Source: Chthoniobacter flavus (lineage in GTDB: Bacteria; Verrucomicrobiota; Verrucomicrobiia; Chthoniobacterales; Terrimicrobiaceae). From it: 63,287 nt of DNA. The notes below the pieces were generated by a model. That model saw only the letters and a program-made list of their open reading frames with translations, did no database searches and was not told where the DNA came from. The translations under genes were made by a program, and so were the position numbers. The stretch covers positions 1 to 63,287 of the forward strand of contig CAMCXK010000007.1 of NCBI GenBank assembly GCA_945883435.1, written 5' to 3'. Of this stretch, positions 6,328 to 32,479 are shown one piece after another; position 1 is the stretch's first letter, and each line of letters opens with the position of its first letter.

Positions 6328-7170
6328 TCAAAAGCTCACCCGCACACCGGTGTTCGCCCACGCCACGCCGGGTTGGCCGATTTCATCCAGCACCTCCATC
6401 GGAATGCTGCCGTTCACCCCTGCAAAAATTTCCACGTGGCGCTGGACCCTCCACACGAGTTCGCCACCGAATTGAATATTGTTCCACCCGTAGGCTTCAT
6501 TGGTGTTGTAGCCGATGTTCAGGCCCAGCAGGGCGTAGGGGCGGAGCCACAGCAGGCCCTTCCGCAGGGGAATGTCGCCGTCCAACCGGCATTCGACAAA
6601 TCCACCGGGGCGCGTGTTCAGATCCCAAATCAGAGCCACCGATGGTGTGACGTAGGGAATCTTCGTGGTTCCCAAAACAACAAACAATTCGTTGCCGACC
6701 GCCTTGTGGGAGTGATCGGCATGCCCCGATTCCTCCCCGGAGTGCTCCTCCTCGTCCTCTTCCCCGTGATGGGCCTCCTCGTGGTGGTGGTGTGTGGATT
6801 CATCCGCAGGCAGGCGCGGGGTAAGGCGCAGATTGTAGCCCGGCACCAGAAACAACGGTCCTGCGTCGAAGGCATAGGAAGCGGTGAAATCCCACTCGGT
6901 GAATTGCGACCCGAAGCCGCTCCAAGCGCTCAGCGAAAAGTCGCCGATCTCCCAGCCCAGTTCATTTGTCCAAGCGCCACCGGGGCCGGTTTCGTCCACG
7001 CCATAATGCACGTGCCGCCCCTCCCAGGCGCTGGTCCAAGACAGGCCCGCCATGCCGGGCGAGGCCTCGATCTCCGTGTTTCCCAGATCCTCCTCCACCG
7101 TGCCGGCGGTGTGAGTTCCGTGTGCAAAAACCGCCGACGCGGCCGCCAATAAACAAATCATCCATCTCAT
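6328..7170 (-). CDS. His-rich outer-membrane beta-barrel protein, possibly metal-linked
   Basis: The 280-residue product begins with a signal peptide (MRWMICLLAAASAVFA) and its mature end starts HGTH. Residues about 127-156 form a loop of His and Glu (THHHHEEAHHGEEDEEEHSG, then HADHSHK). The rest alternates Gly, aromatic and charged residues, and the protein ends GVRVSF, with terminal Phe, as in outer-membrane barrels. The start was chosen at the ATG behind GAGGA; an upstream ATG would add seven residues. Two perfect 6-3-6 palindromes lie in the 62 nt upstream. The loop is a plausible Zn or Ni binding site, so a metal-uptake or metal-sensing porin is my inference; I do not recognise a named family. 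Confidence 0.7.
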   Translation of the reverse strand: MRWMICLLAAASAVFAHGTHTAGTVEEDLGNTEIEASPGMAGLSWTSAWEGRHVHYGVDETGPGGAWTNELGWEIGDFSLSAWSGFGSQFTEWDFTASYAFDAGPLFLVPGYNLRLTPRLPADESTHHHHEEAHHGEEDEEEHSGEESGHADHSHKAVGNELFVVLGTTKIPYVTPSVALIWDLNTRPGGFVECRLDGDIPLRKGLLWLRPYALLGLNIGYNTNEAYGWNNIQFGGELVWRVQRHVEIFAGVNGSIPMEVLDEIGQPGVAWANTGVRVSF

Positions 7171-7186
7171 AAGGGTCCTCAAGATA

Positions 7187-7201
7187 TGCAAGCGACTTGC
7201 A
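7187..7201. promoter_or_regulatory. Palindromic operator-like site 1 (6-3-6)
   Basis: TGCAAGCGACTTGCA is a perfect inverted repeat of six bases around a 3-nt centre, 17 nt before the start codon of the His-rich outer-membrane gene. It shares ATATGCAA at its left side with site 2. The layout resembles Fur-family metalloregulator boxes (TTGCAA half-sites occur in Nur/Zur-type sites), but the regulator is not identified. Confidence 0.55.
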
Positions 7202-7217
7202 GTTGTCGATCAAAATA

Positions 7218-7232
7218 TGCAAATAGTTTGCA
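7218..7232. promoter_or_regulatory. Palindromic operator-like site 2 (6-3-6)
   Basis: TGCAAATAGTTTGCA is a second perfect 6-3-6 palindrome, centred 31 nt (about three helical turns) from site 1. Two equal sites on the same DNA face suggest cooperative repressor binding. The site lies between the divergent His-rich gene and the YfhO-like gene starting at 7312, so it could affect either. Confidence 0.55.
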
Positions 7233-31603: not shown

Positions 31604-32479
31604 CTAAATCGAATGTCCGGAAAAGCGACTGGGGGCGATGCCGGTCTGGGTCCGGAACCATCTTGCAAAGTAATTGGCATCGTGAAAGCCGCATTCCTCG
31701 GCCACGCGCCCGACCGGCAAACCGCTCCGGAGAAGTTCCTGGCAGCGCAACAGCTTTGCGGAGTCACGGCACTGCCTGAGCGTAAGGCCGGTGTGCTTTT
31801 TGAACAACCGGTTCAGATGGTCCGGGCTTCGGTGCAGTTGACGACATAATTCCTCGACCGACTCGTGTTGATGCGCAGCATCCGCCGCCAAAGCCTCGAA
31901 CTTCCGGACAATCGCAGGGGAGGGGATCGATGGACGGGGCAGGAATCCCAATGCCCGGAATTGGATATCCAGAATAGCCAGCGAAACCGAGGACGTTAGA
32001 AAGCGGGATTCAATGCCCGAATGGTTTTTCAACGCCCCGAGATCGGTGAGCAATTGGCGGATCCGGATGGTTTCCGAATGGTTGAGCCGGGCGAAAGCCA
32101 GGGGCGGCTGCGGGCGCAATCGCAAGTCGATCGCAAGACACAGCGGTCGCCGCCGTGGATGCTCGTCAAACGAGTGGATACGTCCCGAGGGAATCCATGC
32201 CAGTGTGCCCGGTTCGACCTCGCGGGAGGTGGATCCCGTTTTCAAAGCCCCCCCGGCCGAGAGATAGCAGAGCAACTGGGCGAAGGAGTGACGATGGCTT
32301 TTCACGGTGTCCACCTCGTCGAGATGGCGGTGAAGACGCAGGCGCAAAACCGCCAAACCTGGAAGCCGGGTGTCGATTTTCGAGAGCAGAAGGGACCTGA
32401 AAAGCCTCACAGGCTCTGAATTTGCCACGACACGCGTATGACCTCCATCTTTTCCAGATCCATGCAAACTCAGCCGCAT
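31604..32479 (-). CDS. AraC-family transcriptional regulator
   Basis: A 291-residue regulator with an N-terminal cupin-like sensing domain (SHRHSFAQLLCYL, GTLAWIPSGRIHSFDEHP) and a C-terminal double helix-turn-helix: SVEELCRQLHRSPDHLNRLF and VGRVAEECGFHDANYFARWF. It is the first gene on the minus strand ahead of the SDR-GH88-cupin-Gfo-eda-kdgK set, 72 nt upstream, so it is the natural candidate activator of that operon, responding to a uronate intermediate. Confidence 0.88.
   Translation of the reverse strand: MRLSLHGSGKDGGHTRVVANSEPVRLFRSLLLSKIDTRLPGLAVLRLRLHRHLDEVDTVKSHRHSFAQLLCYLSAGGALKTGSTSREVEPGTLAWIPSGRIHSFDEHPRRRPLCLAIDLRLRPQPPLAFARLNHSETIRIRQLLTDLGALKNHSGIESRFLTSSVSLAILDIQFRALGFLPRPSIPSPAIVRKFEALAADAAHQHESVEELCRQLHRSPDHLNRLFKKHTGLTLRQCRDSAKLLRCQELLRSGLPVGRVAEECGFHDANYFARWFRTQTGIAPSRFSGHSI

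Follow-up and report, generated by a model that had tools for sequence, protein, structure and literature searches.

A pair of perfect palindromes upstream of an outer-membrane-protein (OMP) gene of Chthoniobacter flavus are, on comparison of sequences, very probably operators for a zinc-sensing repressor of the Fur family (Zur), most likely the Fur-family protein encoded on contig C14 of the same genome. A sequence-only reading of this DNA had proposed a dimeric Fur-family (Zur/Nur-type) repressor, and that proposal is supported by a box at znuABC, by genus-wide conservation of the pair, by boxes at CobW genes and by adjacency of Fur-family and znuA genes. Here, the window is the whole 63,287-nt stretch of DNA that was analysed.

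Form and frequency of the boxes

The two inverted repeats described by the sequence-only reading, 31 nt apart in front of an outer-membrane gene, were located exactly (Table 1). Both TGCAAGCGACTTGCA and TGCAAATAGTTTGCA are exact TGCAA-N5-TTGCA palindromes, and both have ATA in front, giving ATATGCAA at 7184 and at 7215; on the minus strand, read towards the OMP gene, the sequence is TTTTTTGCAAACTATTTGCATATTTTGATCGACAACTGCAAGTCGCTTGCATATCTTGAGGACCCTTATG. Within the 63-kb window, a pattern scan finds no further exact TGCAA-N5-TTGCA site. When the window was simulated with a first-order Markov model, 0.08 exact sites were expected per 63 kb, and 300 replicates yielded no pair within 60 nt. The complete genome (2.84 Mb) contains 4 exact sites vs. 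~3.7 predicted from composition; because the genome-wide number equals expectation, raw site counts were dropped as evidence, and the case rests on position, pairing and conservation. A cluster of weak matches at 31653-31760 of the window, which lies inside a predicted ORF, was also dropped.

Each window site is a perfect 6-3-6 palindrome, as the sequence-only reading had stated, but among 28 orthologous boxes only 7 (25%, chance level) have complementary bases at the sixth position. The 6-3-6 form is therefore incidental and is ruled out as the functional unit. Judged from the aligned boxes, the true unit is 5-5-5 with a 4-5-4 core, GCAA-N5-TTGC. As expected of Zur boxes, the window boxes are inverted repeats of a form that would suit binding by a dimeric repressor of the Fur family.

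Table 1. Features of the OMP promoter region (window coordinates)
Feature	Position	Strand	Remarks
Promoter-proximal operator TGCAAGCGACTTGCA	7187..7201		Kept in 14/14 congeneric promoters; would fill proposed -35/-10 spacer
Promoter-distal operator TGCAAATAGTTTGCA	7218..7232		Kept in 14/14 congeneric promoters; upstream of proposed -35
Proposed -35 TCGACA	7204..7209	-	Predicted from consensus match only
Proposed -10 TATCTT	7181..7186	-	17 nt after -35; weak consensus; predicted from sequence and orthologue comparison
Target OMP gene	6328..7170	-	280 aa; signal peptide; predicted 12-stranded beta-barrel

Conservation of the pair at OMP orthologues

The search for OMP orthologues covered 26 genomes of the family, including 16 of the genus (g1); across the named genomes, the single OMP sequence retrieved 0 loci and an alignment query retrieved 19 loci. 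Orthologues with 51-58% identity are present in most of the 16 genus genomes. The box pair is found in all 14 genus promoters examined, with a spacing of 30-33 nt (31 nt in nine), in agreement with the earlier description of boxes about three helical turns apart. Within the 28 boxes of these promoters, GCAA-N5-TTGC is invariant, N5 is free and the outer base pair is looser. Upstream of orthologues outside the genus (L201, L206, L211, L213 and L214; 43-52% identity to the OMP for those aligned), the boxes are absent. The expectation that orthologues carry the sites thus holds within the genus but not outside it, and the absence of boxes at distant orthologues indicates that box control of the OMP gene is specific to the genus.

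Placement of the boxes relative to the promoter

In most orthologues, the counterpart of the proposed -35 element is TTGACA or TTGACT, at an unchanged offset from the proximal box, and in 14/14 congeneric promoters a TTGACA-like hexamer begins 8-9 nt before the proximal box. A TTGACA-like hexamer at that offset would place the proximal box between -35 and -10 and the distal box just upstream of -35. On this placement, the boxes would overlap the core promoter.

The proposed -10 element ends 11 nt before the ATG (7170-7181), which would leave a leader that is very short or absent, and a GAGG at 7177-7180 would fall partly outside the transcript. The OMP start site or the proposed -10 may be misassigned.

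Boxes at znuA and other genes

A genome scan allowing one mismatch, of the kind suggested by the sequence-only reading, gave the result predicted for Zur: the sole other promoter-located exact match precedes znuABC. This site (C89:4305) precedes a ZnuA gene (PF01297, 267.9 bits; His-rich segment HEGHDHSHDHSHG) by 26 nt, measured to the ATG; an ABC ATPase and then a permease frame follow downstream of the ZnuA gene. In its own genome, the box marks two transcription units only, OMP and znuABC; the genome's three CobW-type genes, which are scattered, have no box. The gene calls by which sites were placed, in the stretches around pattern matches, were made with a simple script based on codon usage rather than with a trained gene finder. 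An exact site inside a very long coding frame (G000:C64:6104) and the one-mismatch matches, nearly all of which lie within coding sequence, were taken as chance; of the few one-mismatch matches in intergenic DNA of this genome, none lies upstream of a recognisable metal gene. No box is present at another metal ABC operon of the genome (L162:3272-4579, G000:C43; ZnuA-like, ATPase, permease), whose permease frame continues into a DtxR/MntR-like C-terminal part.

The box upstream of znuABC, as expected of a Zur box, recurs in relatives. Within the genus, TGCAATTGACTTGCA is found, exact, upstream of znuA in 13 genomes, and CGCAATTGACTTGCA is found in a fourteenth. Variants at znuA are TGCAAATCACTTGCA or TGCAAACCACTTGCA in genus g5 and CGCAATTTACTTGCA in genus g2, and znuA promoters in other families of the order (f4, f5, f6) contain TGCAATTCGCTTGCA, TGCAATTGGCTTGCA, TGCAATTACTTTGCA and TGCAAATTGGTTGCA; one znuA promoter (G052) has three boxes in a row. 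The box is absent from the znuA genes of g3 and g4. In family f9 (L229, L233), the neighbour of znuA is another Fur paralogue, and znuA lacks the usual box; in L233 a different palindrome, ACTTGCGGTTGCAAGT, precedes znuA. Among the genus promoters of znuA (L058-L071), many also carry a conserved element ~24 nt upstream of the exact box, TTGCAAACCCAATGC, which resembles the box but is weaker.

Across the genus, ~30 of 42 exact sites precede znuA, OMP, a CobW/COG0523-type GTPase gene or a choice-of-anchor-M-like gene; a reversed control pattern gives 5 sites in all. CobW/COG0523-type GTPases, assigned from the motifs GxxGxGKTT and CxCC, have a preceding box in five congeners (G015, G017, G021, G022 and G024), and at one locus (L131, G015:C77) three different GTPases of this type stand in tandem behind one box. 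The gene for a choice-of-anchor-M-like secreted protein is preceded by a box at L143 (G025:C173), on a contig that also encodes another ZnuA and one more Fur paralogue.

The candidate regulator

The genome encodes three Fur-family proteins: C14, a Fur-like protein (C34) and a PerR-like protein (C30). The C14 protein (G000:C14:41205-41648; 148 aa; PF01475, 73.6 bits vs. a cut-off of 23.1) contains two CxxC motifs (CRQC and CSTC), as expected for a Cys4 structural zinc site, and these are conserved in most orthologues. Its C-terminus, GFRELSHSLEFFGLCSTC, resembles the end of M. tuberculosis FurB/Zur, ...GFSDVSHTIEIFGTCSDC. Where FurB has the strand Cys of its sensory site, the C14 protein has Ser in the alignment; Zur sensory residues vary in position between phyla (PMC6103462). 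The C14 protein scores 34.1 bits against the NCBIfam Zur equivalog NF008646, below the cut-off of 167, and is below cut-off for all NCBIfam Fur-family equivalogs. Because of these scores and the Ser at the FurB Cys position, the assignment of zinc specificity rests on the targets.

The C14 type and the box co-occur, although imperfectly. In g1, g2 and g5 the C14 type is present with 54-70% identity; it was not found in g3 or g4, where znuA has no box. In three genomes of family f4 (G066, G044 and G052), znuA and a C14 orthologue (44-48% identity) are divergent neighbours with the box in the gap between them. In f6 genomes with the box, the C14 relative has only 31-33% identity but is the best match by a margin of ten orders of magnitude, and two of these relatives share a contig with a znuA. 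The f9 genomes have the C14 type, yet no box at znuA, and in G020, a fragmented assembly, the box is present and no C14-type gene was detected.

The target protein

The OMP has no Pfam or NCBIfam family match. An AlphaFold2 model based on 16 sequences (pLDDT 73.7; pTM 0.69) is a 12-stranded barrel in which residues 1-38 and 121-155 are disordered. The nearest solved folds are KdgM (Z 17.4), PcoB (16.4) and NanC (16.4), which have the same 12-stranded fold as predicted for the OMP, at 8-13% identity; VIA-align and Foldseek identify a generic 12-stranded barrel and assign no function. A His/Glu-rich loop (residues about 117-157) lies between strands 5 and 6. If both barrel ends are periplasmic, as in KdgM, PcoB and NanC, this loop is probably extracellular, and a conserved RHxHxGVxE segment joining strands 1 and 2 would, on the same assumption, face outward.

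PcoB, like the OMP, has a His-rich disordered region, and it conducts a metal; the region is at the N-terminus in PcoB (PMC12509749), and in the OMP it belongs to the loop that joins strands 5 and 6. PcoB admits copper (PMC9210255), which makes passage of a metal through an OMP-like barrel plausible. The His-rich loop of the OMP probably serves to capture zinc at the cell surface or to let it in. A more specific proposal, which we offer as tentative and somewhat doubtful, is that the OMP is a dedicated TonB-independent zinc channel, in which the His-rich loop and the RHxHxGVxE loop 1 gather zinc, and whose synthesis is turned on by a Verrucomicrobiota Zur with a Nur-like recognition sequence. 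The predicted mature protein starts with His (VFA|HGTH, window 7117-7125; GAHGPAHxHR in congeners), and the invariant H17 may form an N-terminal metal site.

Proposed mechanism and alternatives

According to the hypothesis that the boxes are Zur operators, Zur dimers loaded with zinc, the putative co-repressor, would occupy both boxes from one face of the helix, one dimer between the predicted -35 and -10 elements and the other just upstream of -35, and would repress by keeping RNA polymerase off. When zinc is scarce, Zur would let go, and the OMP would be made along with ZnuABC, whose promoter has the same box.

The same operators and a Fur-family repressor could instead respond to nickel, in the manner of Nur, or to manganese. 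The identity of the box core to the Nur consensus, the lack of a Cys aligned to the FurB sensory Cys in the C14 protein, and NCBIfam scores of ZnuA against manganese-binding models as well are consistent with another metal. The targets, however, are the operon of a ZnuA with a His loop and, in congeners, CobW/COG0523-type GTPases, together the usual Zur regulon, and no promoter-located match in the genome, exact or with one mismatch, precedes a recognisable nickel or SOD gene. We consider another metal unlikely.

Nor is it at all probable that the boxes are read by the C34 Fur-like protein, the C30 PerR-like protein or an unrelated dimeric regulator: of the three paralogues in the genome, only the C14 type is found beside znuA in relatives, and within the family the C14 type is missing where the znuA box is missing (g3, g4), even though related Fur boxes can overlap in sequence, binding by the C14 protein is a prediction, and the f6 and f9 genomes fit the C14 type poorly. 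An origin of the palindromes by chance or for structural reasons (RNA hairpin, promoter curvature) would agree with the equality of genome-wide exact-site number and expectation (about 3.7), but appears highly improbable, given that 14 diverged promoters keep the boxes with free spacer sequence and that the boxes are placed at zinc genes and recur at znuA across the order; in addition, the sites are upstream of or inside the promoter and would be absent from the proposed transcript.

Relation to known systems

Read as Zur operators, the boxes would agree with published Zur promoters in layout; they differ from them in sequence. Published Zur boxes include ones that cover -35 and -10 and ones that occur in duplicate, the latter at S. 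coelicolor znuA and B. subtilis yciC (PMC6103462). The present system shares with Zur regulons a palindrome with a 4-5-4 core that is located at znuABC and at an outer-membrane gene putatively linked to zinc; on the proposed -35/-10 assignment, the palindrome would also lie over the core promoter. The bases of the core differ from those of proteobacterial Zur (GCAA-N5-TTGC vs. GTTA-N5-TAAC; PMC4176598), and a further difference is that the outer-membrane target here is a predicted non-TonB barrel.

The closest likeness in sequence is to the Nur box of Streptomyces coelicolor, tTGCaa-N5-ttGCAA (PMC3919588), and the remark of the sequence-only reading that the TTGCAA-type half-sites are Nur-like was correct. 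The inverted repeat and its spacing are practically identical to those of the Nur box; the right outer bases here are usually T, not A, and the targets are zinc-uptake genes, not sodF or nickel genes. A single Zur site upstream of Luteolibacter zepA, likened in its report to a Clostridia box (PMC10957091), belongs to another PVC bacterium and, as compared by description only, is likewise a perfect palindrome that overlies a promoter; the gene there is a different one.

A search of open-access papers found no description of a Verrucomicrobiota Zur regulon and no earlier description of the box sequence or of the OMP target. The mechanism would be an ordinary one; what appears to be undescribed is the sequence of the box, the lineage that uses it and the target in the outer membrane. 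If the reading is correct, a Zur box can carry a Nur-box sequence, and the identity of the metal therefore is not readable from the box alone. For a large order of Verrucomicrobiota that has received little study, the finding would also define the sequence read by a zinc repressor, GCAA-N5-TTGC, along with a predicted regulon of small size, and it would link an unnamed family of outer-membrane proteins to zinc.
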